From Salinibacterium sp. NG253 (lineage in GTDB: Bacteria; Actinomycetota; Actinomycetes; Actinomycetales; Microbacteriaceae), in contig NZ_JADYWF010000001.1 of assembly GCF_015864945.1 (NCBI RefSeq), positions 1,612,378 through 1,676,377 of the forward strand: DNA of 64,000 nucleotides, in the 5' to 3' direction. Under the pieces are notes generated by a model. It did not search any database. It was not told the DNA's origin and saw nothing but the letters and a program-made list of their open reading frames with translations. Position 1 is the first letter of the stretch. Every line of letters begins with the position of its first letter. Shown here piece after piece: positions 1 through 53,087 of this stretch. Both the position numbers and the translations under genes were made by a program.

Positions 1-60
1 GAGAGCGCGAGCAGTGCAGTCAGGGCAATTGCGGCCGTAGCCGAGGAACGAATTTTCATC
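1..60 (-). CDS. Secreted protein or lipoprotein, N-terminal fragment cut by the window edge
   Basis: An ATG at 58-60 on the minus strand opens a frame that runs off the left edge. The 19 visible residues begin MKIRSSATAAIALTALLAL, a basic start followed by a hydrophobic Ala/Leu stretch, which is a classic Sec signal peptide. The mature part is outside the window, so no function can be read. It lies 88 bp downstream of the DUF6153-like gene on the same strand and may be co-transcribed with it. In other actinobacteria DUF6153 genes often neighbour DUF305-type secreted proteins, so that is a guess only. Confidence 0.5.
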
Positions 61-2710: not shown

Positions 2711-2746
2711 CGAATGCCGCCCTCACCAGAGTAAGGGCGGCATCCG
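2711..2746 (-). terminator. Intercistronic hairpin / terminator after the ABC substrate-binding gene
   Basis: Arms 2711-2723 and 2734-2746 pair over 13 bp with one mismatch and a 10-nt loop. It lies between the stop of the substrate-binding protein gene (2768) and the aminotransferase start (2629). No U-tract follows, as is common in actinobacteria. It may terminate part of the transcripts or protect the upstream mRNA. Its core CGGATGCCGC recurs in other hairpins of this window. Confidence 0.6.
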
Positions 2747-2767
2747 ACTAGCGGTTATTCAGTGTGA

Positions 2768-26000: not shown

Positions 26001-29000
26001 GAGGATCACGGTCAGCGGCCGGAACTCCAAAGTACTGCGGCACATCTGCGGTGTTGACGACCTCAGCTGAAGCCGCGTTCTCGTCCGCCACGCTGACAAG
26101 CGGCATCGTCACGGAGTACGTGATGGTGACAGAGTCGCCGACTGCGAGCGGGCCCGCAATCGTCCAACCCAAGGTGCCATCGGAGGGGTCAGAGTCAGTG
26201 TTCGTGACACCGGCTGGGTCTGTACTGGTGAACGCGGTAACGCGGTCATCGGGAGTGTCTGTCACCGTGATGTCGTAGGCGGGTGAGGTACCCGTGTTGG
26301 TCACGATGATCGTGTAGTCGAGAGGTTCGCCTGGCTCGGCCCGTCGCGCGTCCGGTCCAGTGAGCGGGCCGTCAACGTTCTTGTCAATCGTGAGAGTCGG
26401 CTCGACAACCGCAGTGTTCGCGGTCGACGGCGTTCCCACAGCATCAAAGTCATCCGGATCTGGCACCGTTGTCGGGGTACCCGCGATGAGGTTGGTGTCG
26501 TTCCAGTAAGGCCGCGCGGTGTTGACGAGCGTGCTGCCGTCTGTAGCAGCCGTTGTCACGATACCCGTGTAGCGGAACGTGATGACCCGATCTTCTGCCG
26601 CAGCAGGATCAAAGTCGCCAAGGAAGAAACCGATGGTGCGGTCGGTCGCTGTTGGCGCACCGATAACCTCGGTGGTTGCCGCACAGGGGGCACCTTCTTG
26701 GTCACACACAGAGTCGAGGAACTCCCCGAAACGAACGTTGGCTGGCATCGTGTCGATGATCGTGGTGTCGTCGGCCACAACGCTCTTCGGGATCGTCACC
26801 TCAACCGTGTAGGTGACAACCTCACCAATCGTGCGCGTTGCTGGGGTCGCCGTCTTGGCGACGCCGACTCCAGGGGTCTGGAGGGTCACCATGCTGGAGT
26901 CTTGGTAGCCCCCAGCTTCAGTGCCGAGCACTGAATCAGAGGTGCGTTCGTCAGGATCAGTGCCGGCGATCGACGTTGTCGTGGCATCCACGGTGTTCAC
27001 GATGGTGGTACCGCCGCGCAGTGGGTCATCGACGATGACGGTGTAGGTGAAGTCGGGGCCGGCGCCGGGAGCGATGCTCGCGACGGTGAAAGTGATGGTG
27101 CGGGCACTTTCGTTCCACTCGCCACCACCCGGAAGGGTCTGGTCGCCGCTGACGGGGTCACCGGCGGCATCGACGGGCTGGACCGTATCCGGCAGCGTGT
27201 CAACAACGAGCGAGTCGTGGGCGGTAGAGACATTCGCAGCGCCGCTGTTGCGCAACTCGAGCGTGTACTCGACGAGTTGGCCAGCGACCACTTCGGCGGC
27301 GACAGCATTACTGCTCTTCTGGATGTCGATATCGGGTTCGACGATGGTCGTCGTGACGCTGTCGCTCACCCCAGAGTCGCTAACGCCGTCAACGTGATCC
27401 CACGTGAAGGTCGCGTTGTTCGACACGGTTTCGCCGCGAACTGGACCATCAGCGTCAAGGACACGCACCACGATAGTGAGCACGATGAGGTCATCTCCGC
27501 TGTTTGCCACGTTCTCATACGTCGCCCCCAAGGGCGCCGTTACTAACTGGCCACTGACATCAGCATCCTGCGGAGCTCCTCCGTCGACAGTGAACGTCGG
27601 TGTTCCGACAATGGCGAGATCGTCGCTGATGATGTCGGTCACTGCGGGGCTATTAAAGGCGCTCGTGCCTTCAGGGATCGTGGTGGTCACGGTGTAGGTG
27701 ATGAGTTCACCGATCGTGGCTTCAGTTCCGGCATTATTTCCGGATTCGTCAATCGAAGTGGTAGCCGCCTTAACTACGGTCGGGCTGTCGATATTCGCGC
27801 TAGCGGTGTCTTTCGCCTCAATGCTGTTGGCGTCATCTTCCAATGTGGGGTCGATGTTGTTCTCGGGAACATAGAGCTGCGGATCGCCGTTGTTCGTGTC
27901 TCCTTCGTAGGAGCGAACACCAGCGGTATTGACGAACTCATCCCCTAGAGAGGAATCGGCCGGGGTAACCACGTCGTAGGTCACCGTATAGCTGTCTCCC
28001 GCTGCCAGCGGTCCAGGGATTGTCCACTCAATGGAATCCACTCCTCCGGATGTCGCGCAGGCGCCGCTATCACTGATCAATTCAATATCGGAGCACTCGA
28101 GCAGACTGGGAAGGTTGTCCCGAATCGAAATATTGTCTGCGTCTTGGAGACCGCTGTTGGTCACCACGATCGAGTAAGTCAGACGATCGGTCGCCTGTAC
28201 CGTGATCGTGTCGACCGGAGCACCAGCAATAGGGTCATTATTGAGCTCCGTGATGCCCTTGGCCAGACTCACGGTCGGCTTTTCGAGCTCTGTATCCGCT
28301 TGATCACGCAATTGGAATACATCACCAGCAGTGTTTTCGTAGGTCATTTTCATGATGTTCGCGACGATCGAACCATCGGTGACCGCAGCAGGATCGGAGA
28401 TTCTGGCCGCGACAAGAACTTGGAATTCGGCTGCCGCATCCACTTGGCCAATGTCCCACGTGAGCAGAGGTGAGTCGGTCTCGTTGGAGAAAGCGACGCC
28501 GTCCGCCGCGGTGATGCTGCTGTTGCCGGTGTACTCGAACGATTCATAGGTGAAACCGGCAGGAAGGAAGTCGGCGACACTGGTTTCGAGGGTGTCCAAG
28601 ATTCCCGGGAAATCAACGGTCAGTTCGTAGCAGACCAGATCGCCAGGATGGAACGGACCGGTGACGGTTTCGCTGAACACTAAGCCCGTTTCGGCACCAC
28701 AAGTTGTAGCGATATCTGCTGGCTGAGCGACGCGCTTGTTGATGCTGATGCCTTGCGCTGTTTGGCCGGCACCCGATGCGTCGACAATGGGAAGCTCTGC
28801 AGTGCTTCCATCGCTCGCGGTGATAATTTCAGCCGTCGCGTCGAGGGTGACCGTGTTGGTCCACGAATCATTCGAGCTCACGGGGCCGCCACCATTGCGG
28901 TACTCGGTGCGCGTCATCGTGGTCACAGTAATCGTTGCCGATGCGGATGCCGCCGCAAACGCTGCTGCGTTCCAGGACACCGTAATTGTGCCGTCGGCAT

Positions 29001-38100: not shown

Positions 38101-38429
38101 GCTGCGCTCCCCTCGGTAGCCGCCGAGCGCTCGCGAGTGAGGGCGCCGTAGACGTTCATCGTGAGATAGCAGAGCAGGGTGAGAAAGAAGACTTCTTCGA
38201 GGGGAACCTCCGGTGCCACCAACAGTCCGGTCATGAACTCGGTCTCGCCGCGGAAGAAGATGCCGAGGCCGACACCGAGAAGATCCCAGACGAGAAAGAA
38301 GAGCACGCCGACCGGCAGCACGATGCGGGCGCGCCGGGCATCCCGCCAGAAGAACAGCGAAAAGCGTCGATCGAGCACGACCATTCCCGTGAGGGAAATC
38401 AGCAGAGCAAGAAGGTAGAGAACGATCAC
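38097..38429 (-). CDS. crtYe: Carotenoid cyclase subunit CrtYe
   Basis: 110 residues, GTG start at 38427-38429 overlapping the crtI stop by 4 bp. Three hydrophobic segments and the conserved block FRGETEFMTGLL, APEVPLEEVFFL (about 60-83) with the PxEE motif shared by all CrtYcd-type cyclases. It acts as a heterodimer with CrtYf in the cytoplasmic membrane. Confidence 0.87.
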   Translation of the reverse strand: MIVLYLLALLISLTGMVVLDRRFSLFFWRDARRARIVLPVGVLFFLVWDLLGVGLGIFFRGETEFMTGLLVAPEVPLEEVFFLTLLCYLTMNVYGALTRERSAATEGSAA

Positions 38430-40015
38430 GGCCAGGGCCTCGGTTGAGGTGCGACCACGGGCGTCAACGGCTCAGCGAGCGGGCCAGCAGAGGTATCGCC
38501 GCGCAGGCGCTTCACGAGCACTTCGGCACTAATCAGACACATGGGAAGGCCGATGCCCGGGATGGTCGAGCCACCCACGTAGTAGAGGCCCTTGACCTTT
38601 TTGCTCACATTGCCGGCGCGGAAGAACGCGCTCTGCTTGAGGGTGTGAGCCGGCCCCAGTGCGGTGCCGCGCCACGCGTTGAGGTCATCGGCGAAGTCGC
38701 CAGGGCCTACCGTGCGGCGCACCGTGATGCGGTCGGCGAGGTCGGGGATGCCGGTCCACTCGCTGATCTGCGAGATCACCGAGTCGGCGAGCTTCTCGAT
38801 GCGCGCATCGCCAGCTCCGGCGCCTGCGAGTTGACCGTGGCCAATGGCGGGGTCGGCCGGAATCGGCACGAGCACAAACACATTCTCGTATCCCTCGGGT
38901 GCCACATGCGGGTCAACGCCACTGGGCTTGCAAATGTAGAGCGATGCCGGCTCGGGCACCTTCGGTTCGTTGCCAAAGATGGCCTCGAAGCCCTGTTGCC
39001 AGTCCTTCATGAACAGCAGCGTGTGGTGCTCGAGCTCGGGCAGTTCGCCCTTCACACCCAAGTACAACAGCAGCGCGCTGGGGCCGGGAACCTTCTTCTC
39101 CCAGTACTCAGCGGAATAGGTTTGCTCGCTTGACTCCAGCATGGTGGTTTCCGTGTGGTGGAGGTCGGCAGCAGAAACCACGGTGTCGGCGTTGATGGTG
39201 TGACGCTTGCCCGCGGCATCCGTGTACTCAACACCTGTTGCAACGCCATCGACTGTCACGATGCGCGTGACCTTCGAACCGGTGCGGATGTCGACGCCAG
39301 CAGCCCGCGCGATGTCAGCGATGCTTTCAATCACCCGGGTGAAGCCGCCCATCGGGTAAAGCACACCATCCGAGAGATCGAGGTGGCTCATGAGGTGGTA
39401 CATGCTCGGGGTGAGGTACGGCGAGGAGCCGAGAAAGACGGCCGGGTAGCCGAGCACTTTGCGCAGACGATCGTCTTTGACGGTGCGAGCAACCAAACTC
39501 GAGAGCGGTTCGATAAGCAAGCGGATGAAGCGGGCCGCCTTAGCGAGCACCTCTTTCGTTGCGCTCGTGCGCAGATCAGCGAAGCTCGTGTAGAGAAAGT
39601 ACTTCTTCGCGAGCTCGTAGGTGTCTTTGGCCGAGACGAGGTACTTGCGCATGCGGGCACCCGAACCCGGCTCGATGCTCTCGAATAGCGCGAGGTTCTC
39701 TTCGAGCTCGGTTGAAATGTCGAGCGCTTCTTTCTCTCCCTCAAAATAAACCCGGTAACCAGGGTCGAGGGTGACGAGCGAAAGCTGCTCGGCGGCACTC
39801 GTGCCCATGAGTTTGTAGAAGTGATCGAACACCTCAGGCATCAAATACCACGACGGCCCGGTGTCGAAACGGAACCCTTCGTGCTCCCACAGCCCCGCGC
39901 GGCCACCCACCTCAGGGCGGCCCTCGAGCAGCGTGACCGAATGCCCCTCCTTAGCCAGCAGTGCCGCACTCGCGAGCCCGGCAATACCGCCACCAATTAC
40001 TACAACGTCACTCAT
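38426..40015 (-). CDS. crtI: Phytoene desaturase (CrtI)
   Basis: 529 residues. The N-terminal FAD motif is VVVIGGGIAGLASAALL (about 4-20), followed by the LEGRPEVGGRAG stretch; the C-terminal FAD-binding block is YYVGGSTIPGIGLPMCLISA (about 483-502). It introduces four double bases into phytoene to give lycopene and works at the membrane. The start overlaps crtB by 4 bp and the stop overlaps crtYe by 4 bp. Length and motifs are those of bacterial four-step desaturases. Confidence 0.94.
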   Translation of the reverse strand: MSDVVVIGGGIAGLASAALLAKEGHSVTLLEGRPEVGGRAGLWEHEGFRFDTGPSWYLMPEVFDHFYKLMGTSAAEQLSLVTLDPGYRVYFEGEKEALDISTELEENLALFESIEPGSGARMRKYLVSAKDTYELAKKYFLYTSFADLRTSATKEVLAKAARFIRLLIEPLSSLVARTVKDDRLRKVLGYPAVFLGSSPYLTPSMYHLMSHLDLSDGVLYPMGGFTRVIESIADIARAAGVDIRTGSKVTRIVTVDGVATGVEYTDAAGKRHTINADTVVSAADLHHTETTMLESSEQTYSAEYWEKKVPGPSALLLYLGVKGELPELEHHTLLFMKDWQQGFEAIFGNEPKVPEPASLYICKPSGVDPHVAPEGYENVFVLVPIPADPAIGHGQLAGAGAGDARIEKLADSVISQISEWTGIPDLADRITVRRTVGPGDFADDLNAWRGTALGPAHTLKQSAFFRAGNVSKKVKGLYYVGGSTIPGIGLPMCLISAEVLVKRLRGDTSAGPLAEPLTPVVAPQPRPWP

Positions 40016-40878
40016 GGTCGAGGAGTCACTCCTATCGCGGCCGCCGCAGCCAACCGCAGTTTCACAACATCTGGAACCCGCACCCGGGTCTTCACCAATT
40101 CGCTCGCCGGAGTTGCCCGGATGCGCTTGGAAAGTTGGGCAAAGAGAGAGTGCGCGAGCGCAACCGCTTTTTTGCTGCTCGCCGGCAGCTCGGCACCAAT
40201 GGCGGCATCCCGCAGATCAGCATCGAGATCATCAAGCAGTCGGATCTTTTCGGCTTCGGTGAACGAGGCAACATCGATGCCCGGAAAGTAGCTGCGGCCG
40301 AGCGTCTCAAAATCGTCGGCGAGGTCACGCAAGAAGTTGACCTTTTGGAAGGCTGCGCCGAGCGCTTGTGCACCGCGCTCGAACTTGGCTCGCTGCTCGT
40401 CGCTGACATCGTGGCCGTGCAGGAAGGCACACAGGCACATAAGACCGACAACTTCAGCGGAGCCGTAGACGTAGCGATCAAAGCTGGCCTGGTCGTGCTC
40501 TTTCTGGTTGAGATCCATGCGCATCGACTCGAAGAAGGGAGCCGTGAGCTCTGCACCAAACGACACCTCGCGCGCGGTGAGCGCGAAGGCATGAACGACG
40601 AGGTTCGAGCTGAAGCCGCTCGCGATCGCGTTCTCGGTTTCTTTCTCAAGTTCGTTCAACTGACGGCCCGTCGCGATCACGTCGAGACCGGCTTCTTCGG
40701 CTCCGCCGTCAACGATTTCGTCGGCCACCCGCACGAGAGCGTAAATGTTCTCGACATGCTGGCGAACATCCGTGCCGAGAAGGCGAGATGCCGCAGAAAA
40801 CGACGTGGAATAGCTGCGAATGACGATGCTGGCCGCATCTTCGGCGACACGGTCATACAGCTTCAGACGTGAGCTCAC
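40012..40878 (-). CDS. crtB: Phytoene synthase (CrtB)
   Basis: 288 residues from a GTG start (40876-40878). The first Asp-rich motif is DEIVD (53-57) in YALVRVADEIVDG, the second DLADD in KVNFLRDLADDFETLGRSYF (about 182-205). Squalene/phytoene synthase family. It condenses two geranylgeranyl diphosphates to phytoene. It is the first gene of the carotenoid operon here; the usual crtE gene for geranylgeranyl diphosphate synthase is not adjacent. It is divergent from idi, with 106 bp between the starts. Confidence 0.93.
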   Translation of the reverse strand: MSSRLKLYDRVAEDAASIVIRSYSTSFSAASRLLGTDVRQHVENIYALVRVADEIVDGGAEEAGLDVIATGRQLNELEKETENAIASGFSSNLVVHAFALTAREVSFGAELTAPFFESMRMDLNQKEHDQASFDRYVYGSAEVVGLMCLCAFLHGHDVSDEQRAKFERGAQALGAAFQKVNFLRDLADDFETLGRSYFPGIDVASFTEAEKIRLLDDLDADLRDAAIGAELPASSKKAVALAHSLFAQLSKRIRATPASELVKTRVRVPDVVKLRLAAAAAIGVTPRP

Positions 40879-40984
40879 GCGCGCCCACCCTCAGCATGTT
40901 CAGGCACATTAGTTAGGCTGAGTGCAGGCCGACACATGGGGTGCGGCATTTCGATTCGTTCCACCTAGGCAGACTATCGCGATC

Positions 40985-41515
40985 ATGAGTGAAATCCCCG
41001 AGCAGGTTGTACTTCTCTCCGAGTCCGGCGAACACATTGGTGTTGCCGACAAGGCCCTCGTTCACACGACCGACACCGCCCTGCACCTCGCGTTCTCGTG
41101 CCACGTCTACAACGCCGACGGCAAGGTGCTCGTCACCCGTCGCGCGCTCTCGAAACTCACCTGGCCCGGTGTCTGGACGAACTCGTTCTGCGGCCATCCG
41201 GCCCCCGGTGAAGATATGGCTGTTGCGATCATCCGCCGGGCCAAGTACGAGCTCGGAATTACCGTCAGCGATGTGCAACTCGTGCTGCCCGATTTTCGTT
41301 ACCGCGCCGTTGACTCCTCCGGCATCGTCGAGAATGAGATCTGCCCTGTCTACCGTGCAGTGACGACGGATGCCGCAGCCCCTAACCCGGCAGAGGTCGA
41401 CGAGTTCGACTGGGTTGACCCCGAGTCGCTGCACAGCGCCGTGGCCGCAACTCCATTCGCGTTTAGCCCGTGGCTCGGCTGGCAGTTGGAGCAACTCGAC
41501 GCTCAGCGCGACTAG
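40985..41515 (+). CDS. idi: Isopentenyl-diphosphate delta-isomerase, type I
   Basis: 176 residues; the ATG at 40985 matches the family N-terminus, and GACTAT 7 nt upstream suggests a leaderless transcript. Catalytic Cys69 lies in NSFCGHP and Glu116 in GIVENEICPVY. RRALSKLTWPGVWTN and IIRRAKYELGI are nearly as in E. coli Idi. It interconverts IPP and DMAPP, feeding both GGPP synthesis and the C5 units used by CrtEb. Its stop shares 4 bp with the convergent lipoprotein gene. Confidence 0.94.
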   Translation: MSEIPEQVVLLSESGEHIGVADKALVHTTDTALHLAFSCHVYNADGKVLVTRRALSKLTWPGVWTNSFCGHPAPGEDMAVAIIRRAKYELGITVSDVQLVLPDFRYRAVDSSGIVENEICPVYRAVTTDAAAPNPAEVDEFDWVDPESLHSAVAATPFAFSPWLGWQLEQLDAQRD

Positions 41516-42941: not shown

Positions 42942-43391
42942 CTACGGCAGCCGCGCGGGAGCGAGCAACGCGATGCGCGACGCTGCGACATCCGCTGCCG
43001 TCTTCTCGATGAGCTCGTCGAGACTTTCGTAGCGGAACATCCCCCGCAACCAGGCGTGCACCGTGAACTCGACCTCGGCGTCATAGAGGTCCCCGTCGAA
43101 ATCATGAATAAAGGCTTCGACTCGACGCTCGGTCACGTCGTCAAAAGTGGGGTTGTCACCGATGCTGATGGTCGCGCCATGACGGGTGGCAGCCGGCGGG
43201 AAGGTCACCCAGCACGCGTACACACCGTCGACCGGCAACGCGTGGTGGTCGGTGACAGCAATATTCGCGGTGGGAAAACCCAGCTCGCGGCCACGCTTGT
43301 CGCCATGCACGACGGTGCCGCGAAAACTCAGCGTGGGCGGATGCTCCATTAGGTCAACGCAATCGGTGCTCGGGCCACGCTCGTTAGCCAT
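42942..43391 (-). CDS. Stand-alone riboflavin kinase (flavokinase) domain protein
   Basis: 149 residues consisting only of the flavokinase fold: LSFRGTVVHGDKRGRELGFPTANI (about 22-45; the GxPTAN motif binds ATP-Mg), GVYACWVTF, SIGDNPTF and the VEAFIHDFDGDLYD block (about 101-114). The FAD-synthetase half found in ordinary RibF is missing. It starts 33 nt after the flavin reductase gene. The ATG at 43389-43391 has no good ribosome site; a second ATG at 43347-43349 is an alternative start. It should turn riboflavin into FMN, probably for the flavin reductase/monooxygenase pair. Confidence 0.8.
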   Translation of the reverse strand: MANERGPSTDCVDLMEHPPTLSFRGTVVHGDKRGRELGFPTANIAVTDHHALPVDGVYACWVTFPPAATRHGATISIGDNPTFDDVTERRVEAFIHDFDGDLYDAEVEFTVHAWLRGMFRYESLDELIEKTAADVAASRIALLAPARLP

Positions 43392-43424
43392 GGTGCGCAC
43401 CCGTGAAGCACGCACGCCCGCCGC

Positions 43425-43919
43425 CTACAGCCCGCGGAACTGGCTGAGGTGAAAGACAAGAGGAGTGACTTCGGGGAACGCTTCAGAGTGGATGACTTCG
43501 AGAGTCACAATCTCGTGGTCACCGCCGTCAAAGCTGTTACGAATCTCGCACTCGAGCCACAAAGCGGCACCATCCATGTGGATGGCTCCCCCTTCGGTCG
43601 CGCGCCAGGCAACGTCGGCGAAACGGTCACCCGTGCGGGAAGCGAGGCTGCGGGCGGTGCTTTCCTGATCGGCGCCAAGAACGCTGAGCCCGATGCGGGT
43701 GGCGCGCGCGAGCACGGGCCACGTAGCGGAGGTGCGCGCGGGGCACACAGCTACGAGCGGTGGGTCGAGGGAAACGGACGTGAAGGAGTTGACGGCGATG
43801 CCGGTTGGGGTGCCATCGACGACAGCGGCGAGCGCGACGACGCCGGTGGGAAAGAGCGAGAGTGCTCGGCGAAGAGCAACCTGCGGGGGAACTTCTTCCG
43901 CGGTGGTCTCATGCGACAT
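43425..43919 (-). CDS. Flavin reductase (HpaC/RutF-like, FMN-binding split barrel)
   Basis: 164 residues. FPTGVVALAAVVDGTPTGIA (about 23-42), VNSFTSVSLDPPLVAVCPA (43-61), SVLG and GDRFADVAW are the usual landmarks of the two-component monooxygenase reductases. It reduces FMN with NAD(P)H and passes FMNH2 by diffusion to an oxygenase. The ATG at 43917-43919 has AAAGGAG 7 nt upstream. It is divergent from the PadR gene and close to an NtaA-type monooxygenase gene, its most likely partner. Confidence 0.85.
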   Translation of the reverse strand: MSHETTAEEVPPQVALRRALSLFPTGVVALAAVVDGTPTGIAVNSFTSVSLDPPLVAVCPARTSATWPVLARATRIGLSVLGADQESTARSLASRTGDRFADVAWRATEGGAIHMDGAALWLECEIRNSFDGGDHEIVTLEVIHSEAFPEVTPLVFHLSQFRGL

Positions 43920-43935
43920 GGGCGGACTCCTTTGC

Positions 43936-44008
43936 TTGAAATGTTCAACCAGCGACTGCTAGTCAAGTTTGAACATGTGACTACATGTTAGTCATTTTTG
44001 ATCATGTA
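43936..44008. promoter_or_regulatory. Cluster of palindromes in the flavin reductase / PadR intergenic region
   Basis: Three elements in the 141-bp divergent gap: TTGAA-ATG-TTCAA (43936-43948), a perfect AACATGT-GACT-ACATGTT (43972-43989) and TTGATCATGTA (43998-44008). The ATGT/ACAT pattern is that of PadR operators. TCAAGTTTGAACA (43963-43975) and TTGATCATGTA recur upstream of the importer operon at 49025-49055. TACCAT (44048-44053) 7 nt before the PadR ATG may be a leaderless -10. Confidence 0.6.
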
Positions 44009-44060
44009 AACAACAGACTTTCTCCCCTGCACGCCGACCGCTTGGCCTACCATTGGGGGC

Positions 44061-44660
44061 ATGTCGACTACAACTCGCCTCGTCGTACTGGGAGCTGTGA
44101 ACCAGTTCCAACCAGTTCACGGCTACTTTCTGCGCCGTGAACTGATGACCTGGCACATCGACGAATGGGCCAACATTCAGCCCGGCTCGATCTACAACGC
44201 CCTGCGGTCGCTCACGAACGATGGCTATCTCGCCGAGAACGGCACCGAGTCTGCCGGCAACCGCCCCGAGCGCACGACCTACCGCATGACCGAAGCCGGC
44301 GAAGTCGAATTGCTCCGGATGCTGCGCGACGCCCTCTGGACAGTCGAAGTCTTCGACACCAAGCCCGTCATGGTGCTCACCTCGTTCATGTACGCCCTGC
44401 AGCGCGAAGAAGTGCTCGCCGGACTCGAACACCGCGTCACCGAAATCGACGCCCGCATCGCCAGCAACGCGTACCACATTGGTGATGTTGCAACCTCGAC
44501 CTCGACTCCCGCCTACGTGCGCGAAATCTTCGAACTGGCAACCTCTCGCTTGCGCGGAGAACAGCAGTGGGCTCGAGACGTGATCGGCCGCATCCGCTCT
44601 GGCGATTACGTCTTTGCCGGAGAAGATGGCGACCGTCCCGCTCGCCGCGCTACGAGCTAG
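44061..44660 (+). CDS. PadR-family transcriptional regulator
   Basis: 199 residues. N-terminal winged helix (1-80): LVVLGAVNQFQPVHGYFLRR, NIQPGSIYNALRSLTNDGYL with the recognition helix, and the wing ERTTYRMTEAGEVEL. The C-terminal helices (about 95-180) are the Vir_act_alpha_C-type dimerisation domain. PadR proteins are mostly repressors released by small, often aromatic, ligands. Divergence from the flavin reductase gene and the palindromes between them point to control of that operon and, through shared sites, of the importer/monooxygenase operon. Its stop shares CTAG with the convergent monooxygenase gene. Confidence 0.88.
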   Translation: MSTTTRLVVLGAVNQFQPVHGYFLRRELMTWHIDEWANIQPGSIYNALRSLTNDGYLAENGTESAGNRPERTTYRMTEAGEVELLRMLRDALWTVEVFDTKPVMVLTSFMYALQREEVLAGLEHRVTEIDARIASNAYHIGDVATSTSTPAYVREIFELATSRLRGEQQWARDVIGRIRSGDYVFAGEDGDRPARRATS

Positions 44661-46024
44661 TTCTTCGCTTCAACCGCGGCCGTCGCCCGGTAGGCCGCAC
44701 CAGGGTGGTCGTCACGCAAGATCGAATCGTCGGTGCCGAGCAAACGCTCGCGCAGAGTCGAAGCGTCGTAGCCTTCGCCCGCAACTCCCCGCTCGCGCAG
44801 AATCGGCAGCACCTTCTCGATGAACTCGACGGTTGAGCTCGGCTGAATCATCGGCGTCAACAAGAAGCCATCGAGGTCGGCGCCCTCAGCGAGAGCGATC
44901 ATCTCGTCTGCGATCTGCTCAGCCGTGCCCACGAAGGGCTTGCTGCGCACACCATTGCCATGCCACTGCGCCAGGACATCGCCAACCGTCTGGTCGCCGA
45001 AGCGGGTGATCTGGGTCTGCGAAAGCTCAGTGTGCAGCTCCTTCATCGGCGTTGCCGGGTCGAAGGACGAGAGATCGAGGCCCGTGAACCAGGCGTAGGA
45101 GGCGACGGCCACGTCGGGGCTCTCGGCATCCAGCACCGCTTGCAGCTTGGCCTTGGCTTCGTCAGCGGTGTCGCCGATGACGCACGTGAAGGCCGACATG
45201 ATCTTGACCGAGTCGGCGGCGCGACCGTTCTTGACGGCCTCTTCACGAATGGAGGCGACCTGCTCGGCCACCTTCTCGACGGCTCCACCACCGAGGAAGA
45301 CAGCTTCACCGTGCTTGCCGCCGAACTCGCGGCCGCGCGGTGAGGTGCCCGCTTGGAAGAGCACCGGGGTGCCCTGCGGTGAGTACGAGGAGTTTCCATA
45401 ACCGTGCGATTTAAAGTACGGACCATCGTGCTCGATGCGGTGAACCTTGGCCGGGTCAGCAAAGCGACCATTCTTGTCACGCTCGAGCGCGTCACGCTCC
45501 CAGGCGCCCTCCCACAGCTTGTAGACGACTTCCATAAAGTCATCGGCCATGTCGTACCGCTCGTCGTGCGCGACCATCGGAACGCCAAAGGCCTGCGATG
45601 CCGTCTCGGCGGTTCCCGTCGTCACGACGTTCCACCCGATGCGCCCGCCCGAGAGGTGGTCGAGGCTCGCAATGCGGCGGGCAAAAGCGTAGGGCTGTTC
45701 AAGAAGAGTGGATCCCGTGAGCACGAGTCCGAGATTCGTGGTCGTCGAGATGAGAGCAGCAGCCAGAATCGCCGGATCGAGGCGCGGCAGGTCGAGGCCC
45801 TCGACCGAGCAGATCTCGGGACGCTCGCCGTTGACGTCAGCCCAGCCCCACGCATCCGCCAAAAACATGAAGTCGAAGCCGGCTTCTTCGCAGATGGTGG
45901 TGATTTCACGCCAGTAGTCGAGGCGGTCGAACATGTCGCGCTTGTTGTCGGGGTGACGCCAGGTGGACGTGCCCGAGTCGTTGGCTTGGGGGTTTTCGAA
46001 TAGACCGAAGCGAAGCTTCTTCAT
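44657..46024 (-). CDS. FMNH2-dependent monooxygenase of the NtaA/SnaA/DszA (LLM) family
   Basis: 455 residues, about the usual length of the family. It begins MKKLRFGLFENPQAN and has FDFMFLADAWGW, the TNLGLVLTGSTLLEQPYAFAR region, SGGRIGWNVVTTG (about 125-137, family signature WNVVT) and GTPVLFQAGTSPRGREFGGKH (about 218-238). These enzymes use FMNH2 from a separate reductase to attack nitrilotriacetate, dibenzothiophene sulfone, alkyl sulfides and similar compounds. The ATG at 46022-46024 has AAAGGA upstream. As the last gene of an importer operon, it probably oxidises the imported compound; the substrate is unknown. Confidence 0.88.
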   Translation of the reverse strand: MKKLRFGLFENPQANDSGTSTWRHPDNKRDMFDRLDYWREITTICEEAGFDFMFLADAWGWADVNGERPEICSVEGLDLPRLDPAILAAALISTTTNLGLVLTGSTLLEQPYAFARRIASLDHLSGGRIGWNVVTTGTAETASQAFGVPMVAHDERYDMADDFMEVVYKLWEGAWERDALERDKNGRFADPAKVHRIEHDGPYFKSHGYGNSSYSPQGTPVLFQAGTSPRGREFGGKHGEAVFLGGGAVEKVAEQVASIREEAVKNGRAADSVKIMSAFTCVIGDTADEAKAKLQAVLDAESPDVAVASYAWFTGLDLSSFDPATPMKELHTELSQTQITRFGDQTVGDVLAQWHGNGVRSKPFVGTAEQIADEMIALAEGADLDGFLLTPMIQPSSTVEFIEKVLPILRERGVAGEGYDASTLRERLLGTDDSILRDDHPGAAYRATAAVEAKN

Positions 46025-46111
46025 GGTGAATCCTTTCGTGGTGGTGAAAAAAGTCAGGTACAGCTGAAAAAAGTCAAAGTTGTAGCGGGAAAAGGTGGGG
46101 GGAGCCGAAAA

Positions 46112-46969
46112 CTACCGGCCGACGGCGGCTCCGTCGCTCCACCACAGCACTCGTTTGCGCACGAGAGCGAGCAGTGAAATGAGCACGACACCCATGAAGC
46201 AGAGCAGCGCGATGCTGGCCCACGTGACGGGCAAGTTGGCTTGGGCTGCGGCGATCGTCACGAGGGATCCGAGCCCTGCCTGCTGGCCGGCCGCAACGAA
46301 CTCGGCAACAGCCGCGCCGACAATCGCCAGCGGAAGCGCGATACGCAGTCCCGCAAAGACGTAGGGCATCGACCCGGTGAAACGCAGGTCGCGGAAGATC
46401 TCCCAGCGGCTGGCATGCAGTGTCTTCATCACATCGAGAGCGCGATCATCCACATCTCGCAGCCCGGCAAGGGAGTTCACGAGCATCGGGAAGAACACGA
46501 CCAGCGCGGTCACGATGAACTTGGGCGTCATGCCGAAGCCGAACGCTACGACAAGCGCGGGAGCGATGGCCACGATCGGAGTCACCATCACGACAACGAC
46601 GAGCGGCATAACCGCGCGTTCCATGACCTGAAACTCGGCCATGATGATCGCCAAGATGAACCCGGCGATGATGCCCGAGCTCGCACCGACGAGAACTTCT
46701 AGCCCCGTCACGAGCATGTTCGCCCAGTACGTATCGGCATCTTTGATGAGGCTCACCCACACCTGGTCGATGGTCGGAATCACGTACGGGTTCGCGATCG
46801 CGGTGATCTGCCAGAGGGCTGCCGCAATCACAAAGGTGATGACGGCGGGAGCCCAGTTGGTCCAGCGTAAGTTCTGTTTGAACTTGGCCGAGGCCAGCGG
46901 TGAGAAGCGGCGGCCGGTCGCACTTGTCGCCGACTGAACGGCCAGCGCTGATGTGTCGGTTGTTGACAT
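46112..46969 (-). CDS. ABC transporter permease (SsuC/TauC-like)
   Basis: 285 residues from the ATG at 46967-46969, which has GAGGAACG upstream; a GTG 30 bp earlier is also possible. About six membrane segments. The EAA-type loop reads DVMKTLHASRWEIFRDLRF (about 182-200). The sequence PIVAIAPALVVAFGFGMTPK before it is typical of the nitrate/sulfonate/pyrimidine importer permeases. Single permease gene, so presumably a homodimer. Follows the ATPase gene by 22 nt. Confidence 0.87.
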   Translation of the reverse strand: MSTTDTSALAVQSATSATGRRFSPLASAKFKQNLRWTNWAPAVITFVIAAALWQITAIANPYVIPTIDQVWVSLIKDADTYWANMLVTGLEVLVGASSGIIAGFILAIIMAEFQVMERAVMPLVVVVMVTPIVAIAPALVVAFGFGMTPKFIVTALVVFFPMLVNSLAGLRDVDDRALDVMKTLHASRWEIFRDLRFTGSMPYVFAGLRIALPLAIVGAAVAEFVAAGQQAGLGSLVTIAAAQANLPVTWASIALLCFMGVVLISLLALVRKRVLWWSDGAAVGR

Positions 46970-46991
46970 GCGTTCCTCGTTCCTGCGTGAC

Positions 46992-47792
46992 TTAGGCACT
47001 CTTTTGTCCCATCACTTCGCGCAGTGTTTCGCGCACGTGGCCTTCAAGATCACGGAACTCGTCGGTCGCGTACACGTCGATCGTGCGGGGGCGTGGCAAA
47101 GGAACATCGATGACTTCCGCGATGTGGCCAGGATGCGCCCCCATCACCACGATGCGGTCAGAGAGCATGATCGCCTCGGGCACCGAGTGAGTCACAAACA
47201 TGACGGCCTTGCGGTTGGACTGCCAGAAATCGAGCAACCCCAAACGTTGAGCGTCACGGTTCATCTCGTCGAGCGCCGAGAAGGGCTCGTCCATGAGCAA
47301 CACACTCGGGTCGAACACAAACGCGCGGGCAATAGCGACGCGCTGCTGCATCCCACCCGAAAGCTGACCCGGATACTTGTCGAGCGCAGCACCCAACCCG
47401 AATGACTCCAGAATCTCGCGAGGGTCGCGCAGGTTGCGGTTCGCATTCGCTTTCGGGTTCACCCTCATAGGGAGGCGCACATTGTCGAGCACCGTGCGCC
47501 ACGGGAGCAGCGCTGGAGACTGAGGAACAAGACCGATCATCTTGTTCTTCGTCGCGGCTTTCACCGTCATCCCGTCAACCATGACGGTGCCACTGTCGGC
47601 GTCGATGAGGCCAGCGACCGTCTTGAGCAGTGTCGACTTGCCGCACCCGCTTGGTCCGATCACCGAAACGAACTCGCCCATCTTGATCGAGAGGCTCACG
47701 TGGTTGAGCACGAGCGTGCGCGCCCCCTCGGGGCCGAAGCTCTTAGAGACGTTCTCGATATGAACGCCCGCGTGTGGCTGTGCGGTTTCCAC
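46992..47792 (-). CDS. ABC transporter ATP-binding protein (SsuB/TauB-like)
   Basis: 266 residues, GTG start at 47790-47792. Walker [10 protein letters not shown] (about 46-54), Q-loop [15 protein letters not shown], signature LSGGMQQRV (about 145-153), Walker [15 protein letters not shown] and switch His in FVTHSVPEA. It energises the importer formed with the 46112-46969 permease and the 47866-48969 binding protein. Confidence 0.92.
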
Positions 47793-47815
47793 AGTTACTC
47801 CCTGAGTTATGAAGC

Positions 47816-47850
47816 CGGATGCCGCACCGGGTGGGTTGGTGCGGCATCCG
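47816..47850 (-). terminator. Intercistronic hairpin after the importer's binding-protein gene
   Basis: Perfect 13-bp arms (47816-47828 CGGATGCCGCACC and 47838-47850) around a 9-nt loop, 15 nt after the stop of the binding-protein gene and 23 nt before the ATPase start. It probably raises the ratio of binding-protein mRNA to the rest. Core CGGATGCCGC as at 2711-2746. Confidence 0.65.
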
Positions 47851-47865
47851 AGCGGGGTGGTCGGG

Positions 47866-48969
47866 TTAGTTGCCCGGCCAGATCAGTTCGCCGTCTGCAT
47901 AGAGATCAGCGACGAGCGTTTCATCCATCATGTCGGTGATAGCGGGAAGAGTGTCGACGTTGCCGAACTCTTTGACGAGTTCGTATTCGGCGGCCCAGTC
48001 AGCAGCAGTCTGGGTTCCGGGGAGCCCACTGTTGCTGTCCTTGACCCACTGAGATTCCACATTCCAGGTGCGTTCGAGCTGATCGCGCGGGAAGGCAGAT
48101 CCTTGACCGTTGTCTTCGGCGAGCTGGGCGATCATGTCGATGCACTCGTCGGAGCTGTCGAGGCAGAACTGCAAGGCGTGCAGCGATGCGCGCATGAAGT
48201 CAGCGGCGACTTCGCGGTTCTCGGCGAGAAACTCGGAGTTGACCTCCATGACGTTGTAGGTGCCTTCAACACCCACGTCAGAGGGAAAGAACTCGGTGAA
48301 CGGCAGCCCCTGAGCGCGAAGGTTCTCGGGCTGGTTTGAGGCGTAGCCGACTATGGCATCGACCTGGCCGCGGGTGACGACGGTGGGGTCGTAGTTGGTC
48401 ATCTTAATTAGTTCGACCTTGCTGACATCGACGTCAGCGGCATCCAACATGGCGGAGGCGATCGGAGTGAGGTTGATGAAGTAGCCGAGCGAACCACCTT
48501 CAAGATCCTTGAGGCTCGTGATCTTCTCGTTGGCGAAGATCGAGAACGGCGGGGTGTTGCCGTAGGTCGCAACCGCGGTGAGGTTCTTGCTGTTGGCGGC
48601 GGCAAGCATGACATCGGATGCCGAACCGAGTGCGGTGAACTCAGCCTGGCCCGAGGAAACGAGCTGCTGCCCGTTCGCTCCGGAGGCATTGATCTCTACG
48701 TCGAGGCACAGGTCCTTGAAGTAGCCGAGTTCTTCGGCGAGGAATACGTCAAGCTGGCCGGCGCTGGCCGAGTATCCGTAGCCGGAGATGTAGGTGATGG
48801 TGCCCACCGCGGCGTTGCGGTCGCAGGCTTCCTGAGAGATCAGGAGGTCGCCGGCGTCGGGCGTGGATTCTTCTGCGGGGGCTGTGCAGGCGGAGAGCGA
48901 GAGTGCTGTTACCAAGAGCGATGCGATGCCGAGGCCTCGCAGTTTCTTGGAATCAAGAGGTGTAATCAC
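47866..48969 (-). CDS. ABC transporter substrate-binding lipoprotein (NMT1/SsuA-like)
   Basis: 367 residues from a GTG start (48967-48969); the ribosome site is weak. Lipobox LSLSAC with Cys28. Mature part: GTITYISGYGYSASAGQLDVFLAEELGYF, SSGQAEFTALGSASDVMLAAANSKNL and TRGQVDAIVGYASNQPE are the lobes of an NMT1/sulfonate-type binding protein. Four further cysteines (CLDVEI, CLDSSDECID) may form disulfides. It is the first gene of the importer-monooxygenase operon and defines its substrate, which cannot be deduced. Promoter-region elements match those near padR. Confidence 0.87.
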   Translation of the reverse strand: MITPLDSKKLRGLGIASLLVTALSLSACTAPAEESTPDAGDLLISQEACDRNAAVGTITYISGYGYSASAGQLDVFLAEELGYFKDLCLDVEINASGANGQQLVSSGQAEFTALGSASDVMLAAANSKNLTAVATYGNTPPFSIFANEKITSLKDLEGGSLGYFINLTPIASAMLDAADVDVSKVELIKMTNYDPTVVTRGQVDAIVGYASNQPENLRAQGLPFTEFFPSDVGVEGTYNVMEVNSEFLAENREVAADFMRASLHALQFCLDSSDECIDMIAQLAEDNGQGSAFPRDQLERTWNVESQWVKDSNSGLPGTQTAADWAAEYELVKEFGNVDTLPAITDMMDETLVADLYADGELIWPGN

Positions 48970-49024
48970 TTGGATCCAGGTTCCTTCCTAGGCCGTATCC
49001 GTCATTGGATGGCTAGACAAAACG

Positions 49025-49055
49025 TACATGATCAAGATTGACTGTGCAAACTTGA
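49025..49055 (-). promoter_or_regulatory. Elements shared with the PadR/flavin-reductase intergenic region
   Basis: On the minus strand TTGATCATGTA (49025-49035) is identical to 43998-44008, and TCAAGTTTGCACA (49043-49055) differs in one base from 43963-43975. They also form ATCAAG-N14-CTTGAT (49031-49056). They lie 56-86 nt upstream of the binding-protein start, where a promoter operator is expected. The 292-bp gap 48970-49261 otherwise holds only the terminator at 49199-49238. Confidence 0.55.
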
Positions 49056-49261: not shown

Positions 49262-50323
49262 TTAGCCGTGGTCGGCCAACGACTCGTCGACAATGAGCAG
49301 AGTCTTGCCTGGAGCAGCCTCTCGGCTCAGTTGCAGACGGTGGGCTTCCGCGACCTCCCTGATGTGAAGTCGGTCGCCGATTTGGGTGCGAATTGCCCCG
49401 CCTGCGACAAGCGGCCACACGTGTTCGAGCACGCTCGCCACAATTTCTGACTTGGAACCTGCCCCGTGAAGCGGTCGGGCGCGGAGGGTGGTTGCCGTCA
49501 CGGTTCCTCGCTTACGCATGAGCGACCCCAGATTCACTTCGGCCGCTACCCCGCTTTGCGAACCAATGATCGTCAAGCGCCCCGCGGTGGAAAGGGCATC
49601 GACATTTCGTTGCAGGTAGTCGGCACCGACAACATCCAGGATCAAGTCCGCGCCGACGTCAGATCGGTCGCCGCGCAACGACTCATCGCGAACGACCTCG
49701 ACAAAGTCTTCCGACCGGTAGTCGACAACTACCGCGGCGCCCAACTCACGGCAGAGCGCAGCCCCTAGCGTTGATCCGACGGTCGTGACGACTCGGCAGC
49801 CCAAAGCAGTCATGAGTTGGATCGCAAACGTTCCAATTCCGCCAGCGCCACCGTGAAGAAGCACAACTGCACCCTCCTGCGGGCGAGTGGGCATACCCAG
49901 ATTCGACCACACCGTGCACGCAACTTCGGGAAGCGTGGCTGCCTCAAGCAAGCCGACGCCATCGGGGATGGGGAGAAGCTGTTCGTGAGGAACTGCAACA
50001 AATTCTGCGTAGCCGCCGCCCGACAGGAGCGCGCACACCCGATCGCCAACCGCCCAACCTCCGACTGACGACCCGACGGCTTCAATTACTCCTGAGCACT
50101 CGAGCCCAAGAATCTCGGAAGCTCCTGCAGGTGGCGGGTATCGCCCCTCCCGCTGGCTTGAATCGGCGCGATTGAACGCCGTCGCTGCGACGCGCACGAG
50201 CACCTCGCCGTCAGCAATTTGCGGGCGTTCAGCTGTGCCCCATGTCAGCGTCTCCGGCCCGCCGGGCATCGACTGCACTACTGCTTTCATCGCTGCCGCG
50301 TCACTCTCTACCGAATTGCTCAC
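49262..50323 (-). CDS. Zinc-independent quinone oxidoreductase / NAD(P)H-dependent alcohol dehydrogenase-like (MDR family)
   Basis: 353 residues from a GTG at 50321-50323 that overlaps the stop of the TPP enzyme by 4 bp; the internal ATG at 50288-50290 (MKAVVQSMPGG) is an alternative. N-terminal GroES-like domain (FNRADSSQREGRYPPPAGAS, LGLECSGVI) and a Rossmann domain with HGGAGGIGTFAIQL. This pattern is that of the PIG3/QOR group, which reduces quinones or enones with NADPH. No zinc-binding Cys cluster. Coupled translation suggests it acts with the TPP enzyme, perhaps on an enone or ketone intermediate. Confidence 0.82.
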   Translation of the reverse strand: MSNSVESDAAAMKAVVQSMPGGPETLTWGTAERPQIADGEVLVRVAATAFNRADSSQREGRYPPPAGASEILGLECSGVIEAVGSSVGGWAVGDRVCALLSGGGYAEFVAVPHEQLLPIPDGVGLLEAATLPEVACTVWSNLGMPTRPQEGAVVLLHGGAGGIGTFAIQLMTALGCRVVTTVGSTLGAALCRELGAAVVVDYRSEDFVEVVRDESLRGDRSDVGADLILDVVGADYLQRNVDALSTAGRLTIIGSQSGVAAEVNLGSLMRKRGTVTATTLRARPLHGAGSKSEIVASVLEHVWPLVAGGAIRTQIGDRLHIREVAEAHRLQLSREAAPGKTLLIVDESLADHG

Positions 50324-52038
50324 TTGGCCCCATTCTTTGGCAGCACTTCTGCACGTGCTTCCCATCCGGTAATGGGCGGGAATGCATCTTCATCAACAAT
50401 CACTTCAATGAGAGTGACGGCGTCGCTGCCGATTGCCTCTGCGAGCGCTGGCTGCAATTCCTCAAGACTGCTGACCCGGACTCCGCGAGCTCCCGCCGCG
50501 CGAGCAATGGCCGCGTGATCGACATCCGTGAATTTTACGGCGGTCGTGTACTCCGAGAATTGCACAAGCTCAGAGTGCTTCTGAAACCCCAGGATGCTGT
50601 TGTTGAGAAGCACGATCGTGAGCGGCACATTCATCCGGACAGCTGTCTCGAGCTCCTGCCACACGTGCCCGAAGCCGCCATCACCGGTGATGCAGACAAC
50701 GTCGCTTTCGGGACTGGCGACCTTCGCGCCCAATGCCATCGGAACACCCCAGCCCAATCCCGCCATGCCTCGCGGGTACACAAACTGCTGTCCCGGGCGG
50801 CGAGCGGTGATGTAGTTGGCGAGCCAAATCGTGGAGTAGCTCGCGTCTGCGACAACAATGGTGTCCTTGTCGATGAGATCGTCGATTTCACGCATCACAC
50901 GCTCGGGGCGAATGGGAGTGCTTTCGAGATCAACAAGCTCCGCAAACTGAGCGCGGTGGGCGTCACGGGCAGCGATGACATCAGCTTCCAGACTCGCGCG
51001 GTGCGCCTGGCGGTTCTCCACTCCGCGACGCGTCATTGCCTCGGCAAGGTCGTCCAGCGCGGCACGCGCATCGCCGACGAGACGCAGCGCTTCGTAGTTG
51101 CGCCCAATTTCTGCGCCGTCAAGATCAATGTGGATGACCTGTGCGTCAGCTGGAATGATGCTCCAGCCGTCGGTCCCGTTCTCATTAGTGCGATTGCCCA
51201 CGAGCAAGACAACATCGGCGCGATCGAGAAGTGGCTGCATAAACGCGGTGCTGCTTCGCGCGCCCATTACGTTCCCCACAACGCCGAGTGAGAGTGGGTG
51301 GCGTTCGTCCACAGCACCCTTGCCCATGTTGGTTGTAGCCACAGCGAGCGATGCATTCTCCTGCAACCGTGCAAGCGACTCGGCGGCCACCGAGCGGTTA
51401 ACACCGCCGCCGGCAATGACGACGGGATACTTGGCATCAACCAGTAGTTCGGCAGCACGTTCGAGCTGCTGAGCATCCGGCCGCGGACGATCCAGCGGGA
51501 AGGTTCCGAGGGCGCTCACTCGCCGACGCTTCGGTTCGATCGCGGGTTTCAACATGGAGTCTTTGGGCAAGAGCAAGACGACGGGCCCGGGCTTGCCGGA
51601 CGTCGCAATACTGATCGCCATATCGACGTAGTCGTCGACCCGGGCCGGATCTTCGATATGCCGGGTCCATTTGCTGCACCCCGAGAAGAGTTCGTGGTGG
51701 TCTATTTCTTGGAAGGCGTTGCGGTCGCGGGTGGGCGTCGGTACATCTTGAACGATCGCGAGTAGCGGTACAGAACACAGCATCGCTTCTGTGAGCGGCG
51801 GCACAAGCAGCGTCGCTGCGGGGCCGTTCTGTGCCCCGACCACACCAATGCGGTTACTGATGCGCGCGTAGCCATCCGCCATCGCACCGCCAGCGTTCTC
51901 GGTGCGATATACAACCTGTCGAATTCCTGCACGTTCGGCAGCAAGAAAGAACGCGGAAGGCAAACTTTGGCCAAAGGTCTCGGTTATGCCGTGACGCACT
52001 AGCGCGTCAACAACTGCTTCGACTACGGTTTTACTCAT
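50320..52038 (-). CDS. Thiamine diphosphate-dependent enzyme (acetolactate synthase/benzoylformate decarboxylase superfamily)
   Basis: 572 residues, three-domain POX fold. Catalytic Glu47 in YRTENAGGAMADGYAR activates the cofactor; the Mg/TPP motif is GDGGFG at 452-457 with NN at 479-480. The FAD-binding pattern of true acetolactate synthase is not evident in the middle domain. Members include decarboxylases of 2-oxo acids, carboligases and the 1,2-diketone hydrolase. In this neighbourhood a C-C lyase or decarboxylase in a ketone/2-oxo acid pathway is plausible. ATG at 52036-52038 with GGAG upstream; a LysR-type palindrome precedes it. Confidence 0.85.
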   Translation of the reverse strand: MSKTVVEAVVDALVRHGITETFGQSLPSAFFLAAERAGIRQVVYRTENAGGAMADGYARISNRIGVVGAQNGPAATLLVPPLTEAMLCSVPLLAIVQDVPTPTRDRNAFQEIDHHELFSGCSKWTRHIEDPARVDDYVDMAISIATSGKPGPVVLLLPKDSMLKPAIEPKRRRVSALGTFPLDRPRPDAQQLERAAELLVDAKYPVVIAGGGVNRSVAAESLARLQENASLAVATTNMGKGAVDERHPLSLGVVGNVMGARSSTAFMQPLLDRADVVLLVGNRTNENGTDGWSIIPADAQVIHIDLDGAEIGRNYEALRLVGDARAALDDLAEAMTRRGVENRQAHRASLEADVIAARDAHRAQFAELVDLESTPIRPERVMREIDDLIDKDTIVVADASYSTIWLANYITARRPGQQFVYPRGMAGLGWGVPMALGAKVASPESDVVCITGDGGFGHVWQELETAVRMNVPLTIVLLNNSILGFQKHSELVQFSEYTTAVKFTDVDHAAIARAAGARGVRVSSLEELQPALAEAIGSDAVTLIEVIVDEDAFPPITGWEARAEVLPKNGAK

Positions 52039-52102
52039 TTTTGTGTCTCCTCGGTGGCGCGGTTCGTGTAAAGCTGCACAGTCTGCGCAGTAGCGAGATA
52101 GC

Positions 52103-52123
52103 GCTTTTAGCCATGCTAAAAGC
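52103..52123. promoter_or_regulatory. Perfect palindrome between LysR gene and TPP-enzyme gene (probable LysR site)
   Basis: GCTTTTAGC (52103-52111) and GCTAAAAGC (52115-52123) separated by 3 bp. It contains the T-N11-A box of LysR regulators (TTAGCATGGCTAA on the minus strand). It lies 65 nt upstream of the TPP-enzyme start and 50 nt after the lysR stop. An A+T-rich hairpin terminator is the other reading, but the flanks hold no U-tract. Confidence 0.55.
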
Positions 52124-52172
52124 CCTGAAGAGTAAGCGATATGGGGCGTAACTTATGGCCCGATCAGCACTT

Positions 52173-53087
52173 TCAATGGCCCGGTGGCCCTGCGGCGCCC
52201 ACCGCATTTTGTTGCTGGATAGAGGCCACCAAGTTCGCCGCGAGCGCGCCGGCGCGCCCTTTGCCATTCGCCGACCACGCAACGCCCCAGACGCTCATAG
52301 GAGGTTGAGGCGCAATAGGGATCATGACGACGCCCCCGGGGAGGGAGTGCTCCAGCTCCGCATGGGCCAGAGCAAACCCATCGCCGTGCATTACCGACTC
52401 CATGCGATGGCCAAAATCTGGCTGCGAAGCCCCCAAGTTCAATGTCCCACCTTGCCTCACATCGCCCACCACAGAGTCGAAATTTCCGGCAGCGTCACCG
52501 CGCGACCAGTGAATGAGATTTTCGTGAGCAAGCTCCACGCGACTCACGGAGTGACGGCCCGCGAGAGGGTGATTCGCCCCCACAACCGCGCGCTGTTCGT
52601 CGGCACCGAGTTCATAGGTTTCGAGCCCGTCGCTATCAGCCAGCGGCAGCCGAACGAAAACGACATCTGCATCTCCAGCCCGTACATCTTCGATAGCGCC
52701 CGCGGTCCACGTCGTCTGGGCAGTGACCTCAACATGCGGGAATAGATCCCGAAAGCGCGCGACGAGAGGGAACGTTCTTTCTGCGGCGATTGACCGCGAG
52801 TACCTCAACCGAAGAGTGCCTGAAGCGTGGGTTCCTTCTGGCGAGACCTTCTGGACGGTCTCATCAACGAGTTCGAGAATGTTCAGCGCGCCCTCGTAGA
52901 GACGAAGACCCGAAGCCGTTGGCTCTACTGTGGGTGTGCGCACAATGAGCTCAGCGTTTAGCGCGTCTTCTAGCTGCTTGATCTGTTGCGAGAGTGCAGG
53001 CTGTGAGACAAAGAGCCTTTTGGCCGCTCGACCGAAATGTCGCTCCTCAACGAGGGCAACAAAACACTGCAAACGCCAGAAATTCAT
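52173..53087 (-). CDS. LysR-family transcriptional regulator
   Basis: 304 residues. The N-terminal winged helix (1-60) reads MNFWRLQCFVALVEERHFGR, then AAKRLFVSQPALSQQIKQLE, the recognition helix, and LIVRTPTVEPTASG. The effector domain (about 90-295) has the usual two lobes (LRLRYSRSIAAERTFPLV, GDADVVFVRLP). It reads into the TPP-enzyme/quinone oxidoreductase genes after 134 nt and is preceded by the YciI-like gene after 15 nt. Same-strand placement is unusual for LysR genes, which are mostly divergent from their targets. Confidence 0.9.
   Translation of the reverse strand: MNFWRLQCFVALVEERHFGRAAKRLFVSQPALSQQIKQLEDALNAELIVRTPTVEPTASGLRLYEGALNILELVDETVQKVSPEGTHASGTLRLRYSRSIAAERTFPLVARFRDLFPHVEVTAQTTWTAGAIEDVRAGDADVVFVRLPLADSDGLETYELGADEQRAVVGANHPLAGRHSVSRVELAHENLIHWSRGDAAGNFDSVVGDVRQGGTLNLGASQPDFGHRMESVMHGDGFALAHAELEHSLPGGVVMIPIAPQPPMSVWGVAWSANGKGRAGALAANLVASIQQQNAVGAAGPPGH

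Follow-up and report, generated by a model that had tools for sequence, protein, structure and literature searches.

Two bacteria, Microbacterium maritypicum and Devosia riboflavina, are named as riboflavin degraders in the available text of PMC12934955, which also describes the cleavage as oxygen-dependent. The full breakdown pathway was first reconstituted in 2025; according to the accessible part of that report, a five-gene set including the riboflavin lyase RcaE converts riboflavin to lumichrome and ribose in M. maritypicum G10 (PMC12746152). Lumichrome production in a Microbacterium is inducible, and the mechanism of lyase induction is treated as still to be worked out (PMC5399262). Here we describe a related locus in Salinibacterium sp. 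NG253, located in a stretch of 64,000 nucleotides (hereafter the window; contig NZ_JADYWF010000001.1, positions 1,612,378 to 1,676,377), in which genes for a riboflavin kinase, a flavin reductase and RcaE are clustered with a PadR-family gene and adjoin the genes of an ATP-binding cassette (ABC) importer. The locus is a riboflavin-catabolic (rca) cluster of known type in a new host, a Salinibacterium-like actinobacterium; the new part is the assignment of an operator and of the importer. The cluster very probably serves riboflavin import and RcaE-dependent cleavage, with PadR repressing it through a 16-bp inverted repeat until a flavin releases the repressor. Judged by titles and abstract openings, the papers found on PadR with riboflavin and lumichrome, and on Salinibacterium with riboflavin, deal with other matters than this cluster, and it is possible that Xu 2016 (M. 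maritypicum cluster) or Kanazawa 2018 (D. riboflavina cluster; cited in PMC12934955) describe an operator.

Riboflavin lyase and its gene neighbourhood

The oxygenase of the cluster matches riboflavin lyase 5w48 best among solved chains (825 bits; residues 1-449 of 455), and the alignment is free of gaps over 449 residues; an alkane monooxygenase comes second with 324 bits, followed by DszA (228), nitrilotriacetate monooxygenase (202) and ethylenediaminetetraacetate (EDTA) monooxygenase (177). This full-length orthology to the solved lyase sets the protein apart from other NtaA/DmoA oxygenases. Matches to it with E of 1e-100 or better occur in 37 of 299 genomes of the family, and orthologues with at least 68% identity in 11 of the 299, all other matches listed having at most 45%. 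From its sequence, we identify the oxygenase as RcaE, an orthologue of riboflavin lyase, and riboflavin as the substrate of the cluster because of that identity; by orthology, the enzyme would convert riboflavin to lumichrome and ribose with reduced flavin mononucleotide (FMNH2) and O2. A preliminary description of this DNA had left the compound unnamed and suggested aromatic, sulfonated and amino-polycarboxylate compounds for screening as inducers; the match to 5w48 puts riboflavin in their place.

The gene layout suggests two minus-strand operons, one for substrate-binding protein (SBP), ATPase, permease and oxygenase, and one for reductase and kinase, with padR on the plus strand between them, divergent from the reductase gene and convergent with the oxygenase gene (Table 1). 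That flavokinase, flavin reductase, PadR, NtaA/DmoA-family monooxygenase and importer adjoin one another, as previously described, was confirmed by Pfam and NCBIfam. Xu's 2016 abstract is said to name the kinase rcaA, the reductase rcaB and the ribokinase rcaD; this naming, combined with the gene order in M. maritypicum, points to padR as rcaC. The surrounding genome (2,973,865 bases, 2.97 Mb) has two flavokinase domains, the second in a 332-residue open frame consistent with the usual RibF, and encodes lumazine synthase; the host therefore probably makes its own riboflavin.

Table 1. Predicted genes, operators and candidate promoter elements of the cluster (positions within the window)
Feature	Position	Strand	Basis or remark
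Stand-alone riboflavin kinase, rcaA-like, FMN supply	42942..43415	-	Pfam Flavokinase, 122 bits
Flavin reductase, rcaB-like, source of reduced FMN	43425..43919	-	Pfam Flavin_Reduct, 121 bits
Operator O1, TAGTCAAGTTTGAACA	43960..43975	+	2 mismatches; 9 nucleotides downstream of the reductase/kinase candidate -10
Reductase/kinase candidate -10, TAACAT	43985..43990	-	TTGnnn-16..18-TAnnnT pair
Operator O2, TAGTCATTTTTGATCA	43989..44004	+	3 mismatches; in promoter spacer; less conserved than O1
Reductase/kinase candidate -35, TTGTTT	44008..44013	-	
PadR-family regulator (gene order: probably rcaC)	44061..44660	+	PF03551, 49 bits (cut-off 27)
RcaE, riboflavin lyase / FMN-dependent riboflavin monooxygenase	44657..46024	-	PDB 5w48; NCBIfam TIGR03860, 429 bits
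ABC importer permease	46112..46999	-	Pfam BPD_transp_1; 44/45 loci
ABC importer ATPase	46992..47792	-	Pfam ABC_tran; 44/45 loci
SBP, NMT1/THI5 type, predicted riboflavin binder	47866..48969	-	Pfam NMT1, 118 bits
Importer-lyase candidate -10, TACGTT	49021..49026	-	Hexamer varies between genera
Operator O3, CAGTCAATCTTGATCA	49029..49044	-	3 mismatches; fills -35/-10 spacer of the importer-lyase candidate promoter
Importer-lyase candidate -35, TTGCAC	49044..49049	-	Inside the previously described second 13-mer

A search for related loci returned 45 (L001-L045), of which L045 holds a 32% paralogue and the other 44, including those of M. maritypicum (L022) and D. riboflavina (L013), are syntenic. 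Genes for SBP, ATPase, permease and RcaE occur together in all loci except L045 (44/45); PadR and flavin reductase are each present in 43 of the 44 syntenic loci (L041 ends at a contig edge); and the kinase, at more than 60 bits, is present in 40 (not found in L015 and L038; L019 and L041 contig-cut). Membership of the oxygenase in the NtaA/DmoA family (TIGR03860), several solved relatives of which use such compounds, would agree with an NtaA-, DszA- or EDTA-monooxygenase-like enzyme that acts on an aminopolycarboxylate, sulfonate or aromatic compound, with the flavin genes as mere helpers; however, the bit scores favor riboflavin lyase over all of these enzymes, and a riboflavin kinase stands beside the oxygenase in those 40 loci, so that we find this alternative hardly credible.

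Compared with the window, the M. maritypicum cluster has RcaE, PadR, reductase and kinase genes in the same order and orientation, with the importer on the opposite side; it differs in carrying a ribokinase gene between RcaE and padR and in having perfect operator palindromes, whereas the three window operators contain two to three mismatches. The riboflavin monooxygenase cluster of D. riboflavina resembles the window in gene set and operators, but belongs to an Alphaproteobacterium and has a ribokinase gene downstream of the kinase gene; its RcaE groups with the actinobacterial ones. The rca module of Pelagibacterium lentulum (L034) has its ribokinase gene at the Microbacterium position, differing in this from the Devosia loci.

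With one ribokinase as query, the gene was found in 30 of the 44 loci, 27 of which have it in the interval from RcaE to padR, and was not found in 14 (L014 and L041 contig-cut). The window cluster lacks the ribokinase gene of the M. maritypicum type; there is no space for it between RcaE and padR, because both genes overlap, and a ribokinase-like gene elsewhere in the genome scores 293 bits, below the cut-off of 299.65. Ribokinase-free clusters would suit a purpose other than feeding on ribose, namely that lumichrome is made as a signal or that competitors are deprived of riboflavin; in the available text of PMC12746152, the authors propose lumichrome signaling on the grounds that no strain known to them combines the lyase with lumichrome-degrading genes. 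Given the ribokinase genes of the 30 loci and the ribokinase-like gene elsewhere in the host genome, we consider such a purpose unlikely, albeit with an appreciable probability, and retain riboflavin catabolism as the function of the cluster.

As LumK and LumL are thiamin pyrophosphate (TPP) enzymes, a TPP enzyme and a quinone reductase encoded at 49262-52038 were examined as candidate lumichrome-degrading genes. They match acetolactate-synthase-like and PIG3 families and were not linked to the cluster; no match above 60 bits to these proteins was found in L001-L044, the search for lum genes in this genome having covered this region alone. The wider segment at 49262-53087 (minus), just upstream of the importer, encodes a LysR regulator, the acetolactate-synthase-like TPP enzyme and the PIG3-type quinone reductase; the genes of the latter two overlap.

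A 16-bp inverted repeat and the candidate promoters

Comparison of the padR-side and SBP-upstream regions across relatives revealed a conserved 16-bp inverted repeat, TAGTCAA-NN-TTGACTA. Allowing at most three mismatches, this operator is present in 41 of 43 padR-side regions (missing in L031 and L042) and in 43 of 44 SBP-upstream regions (missing in L038), against 0.2 in shuffled sequences in either case; at two mismatches or fewer, the counts are 40/43 and 38/44. By genus, it occurs on the padR side in 8/8 and on the SBP side in 7/8. In L031 and L042, the reductase-kinase genes are divergent from the SBP gene and two operator sites lie between them (with 2 and 3 mismatches in L031, and 1 and 2 in L042); padR, which stands apart from the reductase genes there, has no operator at three mismatches or fewer. 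The operator therefore follows the catabolic genes.

In whole genomes, too, the operator goes with the rca cluster. The common form of O1-O3, AGTCANNNTTGANCA, has exactly three exact sites in the host genome, all of them in the cluster; with one mismatch it has 44 further sites, vs. 19 for a reversed control pattern. A search of five other whole genomes for TAGTCAANNTTGANTA, with one mismatch allowed, gave 11 distinct sites, of which 10 belong to the rca cluster; the reversed control gave three matches per strand in D. riboflavina and one in the L006 genome. Moreover, the operator with at most three mismatches accompanies 10 of 11 rca-linked SBP loci but none of 19 paralogous SBP loci. It could be argued that a regulator other than the neighboring PadR controls both promoters and that PadR controls something else: binding of PadR to the operator is itself a prediction, and in L031 and L042 the separate padR has no operator of its own. 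Yet padR accompanies the cluster in two phyla (43/44 loci), and operator and cluster coincide in whole genomes; we thus regard another regulator as quite improbable and PadR as the preferred candidate.

The preliminary description had proposed one regulon on the basis of two shared words and a palindrome. Shared control stands, now carried by a conserved and rare operator, but the boundaries of the element are those of TAGTCAA-NN-TTGACTA rather than of the words as written. The first word, TTGATCATGTA, is indeed present at 43998-44008 (+) and 49025-49035 (-); the genome has exactly two exact copies. Looser copies are more common, 21 at two mismatches or fewer against 7.1 expected in shuffles. 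The word covers the right half-site of O2 and O3 together with adjoining bases; of the relatives, only L001-L003 carry it unchanged at both places. The second word, a 13-mer, has its only two exact window matches as TCAAGTTTGAACA (43963-43975) and TCAAGTTTGCACA (49043-49055, minus); at three mismatches or fewer, 14 matches compare with 19.3 expected in shuffles. As one shared operator, TCAAGTTTG(A/C)ACA was rejected, the two copies differing in role: TCAAGTTTGAACA lies in O1, whereas TCAAGTTTGCACA spans the importer candidate -35 and ends at the operator. The palindrome AACATGT-GACT-ACATGTT, at 43972-43989, is the only window match at three mismatches or fewer (1.1 expected); it shares bases with one end of O1 and with TAACAT, the candidate -10. 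It was discarded as an operator: none of 43 relatives has it intact, L001 and L002 have it within one mismatch, and at three mismatches L004 is added.

The operator overlaps candidate promoters of both the importer-lyase and the reductase-kinase operons. Shortly before O1, a TTGnnn-16..18-TAnnnT pair occurs in 39 of 42 regions (all except L020, L034 and L043), vs. 0.7 when the 50 upstream bases are shuffled, the allowed distance having been chosen after a first look. At the importer promoter, TTG lies five bases ahead of the operator in 37 of 44 regions; O3 would therefore fill the -35/-10 spacer.

Regulator, importer and proposed mechanism

The regulator carries a PadR winged-helix domain by both PF03551 and fold match. 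A PadR-family precedent is LmrR of Lactococcus lactis, which, according to the accessible part of PMC4534193, is a repressor with affinity for riboflavin (dissociation constant 0.26 uM), a ligand that weakens its hold on its promoters. Unlike the window PadR, LmrR is shorter and has a multidrug role. Its operator also differs from TAGTCAA-NN-TTGACTA.

The importer combines an NMT1/THI5-type SBP with a matching permease, as do the RibXY transporters, which in the available text of PMC4418817 carry riboflavin and consist of a COG0715-type SBP and a nitrate/sulfonate/taurine-type permease. SBPs of at least 659 bits occur in exactly the 11 genomes of the family that have an RcaE orthologue, the next SBPs reaching at most 292 bits (298 genomes were sampled for the SBP and 299 for RcaE); among 396 genomes of the phylum, a close SBP was found in the host's own genome only, one other having a 39% match. 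The nearest solved chains of the SBP are thiamin pyrimidine or thiamin binders, or Thi5, and its structure model is of moderate confidence (mean predicted local distance difference test, pLDDT, 73.8). Given the co-occurrence with RcaE, the thiamin-type relatives and the like composition of RibXY, the importer likely takes up riboflavin. It differs from RibXY in having its own ATPase and a PadR-linked operator. RibXY orthologues were, as far as the available text goes, called by an FMN riboswitch (PMC4418817); for the window importer, control by such a riboswitch was rejected, no Rfam match being found in the window or in 20 loci of related SBPs (two of which are the same gene).

Another member of the family (L103, ~428-3740) has the 39% SBP and an apparent permease gene before a luciferase-like monooxygenase gene that is RutA-like by eye; the group may be a sister module that takes up and oxygenates a different heterocycle.

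We propose the following mechanism: the SBP-dependent importer would bring riboflavin into the cell; riboflavin kinase would convert part of it to FMN, which the flavin reductase would reduce; and RcaE, with reduced FMN and O2, would split the ribityl side chain off a second riboflavin molecule to give lumichrome and ribose, an activity that has been published for orthologues. PadR, bound to the 16-bp repeat, which also lies upstream of padR, would repress the importer-lyase and reductase-kinase operons. Riboflavin or a derived flavin would bind PadR and cause release of the DNA.

Several points weigh against this mechanism. Under strict criteria, a sigma-70 scan detected no promoter in this region, so that the promoters are candidates only; the operator counts are not independent, because the consensus derives from the very regions that were counted and many loci are close relatives (21-22 Microbacterium and 8 Devosia); the window operators deviate from the consensus by 2, 3 and 3 mismatches; and, given the likeness of TTGACT to a -35 element, part of the conservation may be that of the core promoter. 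The link between operator and PadR comes from proximity and conservation, and another regulator could bind it; published PadR sites are reportedly of the ATGT/ACAT type, unlike TAGTCAA-NN-TTGACTA. The structure model of PadR fits Rv1176c, VanR and PadR better than LmrR, and the protein is longer than LmrR, for which reasons the LmrR pocket need not apply; LmrR was set aside as nearest structural relative and serves as a comparison in function only. Finally, with no riboswitch matched in the window, the importer is not marked as a flavin carrier.

Distribution and neighboring genes

In the RcaE tree, the eight Devosia sequences and that of P. lentulum join Salinibacterium and Ruicaihuangia sequences within one supported group (98/94), and the Devosia and Pelagibacterium loci carry the same operators. 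Together, these observations suggest that the whole regulated module moved between Actinobacteria and Devosiaceae; the direction is unsure, because the tree was midpoint-rooted with a very long outgroup. Somewhat short of an even chance, and put forward tentatively, is the broader idea that PadR is a dedicated riboflavin sensor, in which an LmrR-like response to the ligand has become a specific catabolic switch acting at TAGTCAA-NN-TTGACTA; it would have moved between the two groups along with its operators and would control both uptake and cleavage, so that lumichrome release would track vitamin B2 outside the cell. A 16-bp operator shared by two phyla, an adjoining candidate repressor and a candidate importer make the question of induction testable. 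Operator, SBP and RcaE, taken together, could also be used as a marker for lumichrome producers, which are of interest as possible signal makers.

The window RcaE is 99% identical to the proteins of three Salinibacterium records. Within the genus of the host, RcaE is patchy, being present in 3 of the 6 genomes listed, the host's own included.

Elsewhere in the window, a probable carotenoid cluster at 38426-41515 encodes a squalene/phytoene synthase, an oxidoreductase resembling phytoene desaturase, and a NUDIX protein that may be isopentenyl-diphosphate isomerase. Two tandem genes at 15453-22703 and 23032-30288 (minus) encode giant proteins of 2416 and 2418 residues, 74% identical to each other, whose DUF11 and SdrD_B repeats probably place them at the cell surface.

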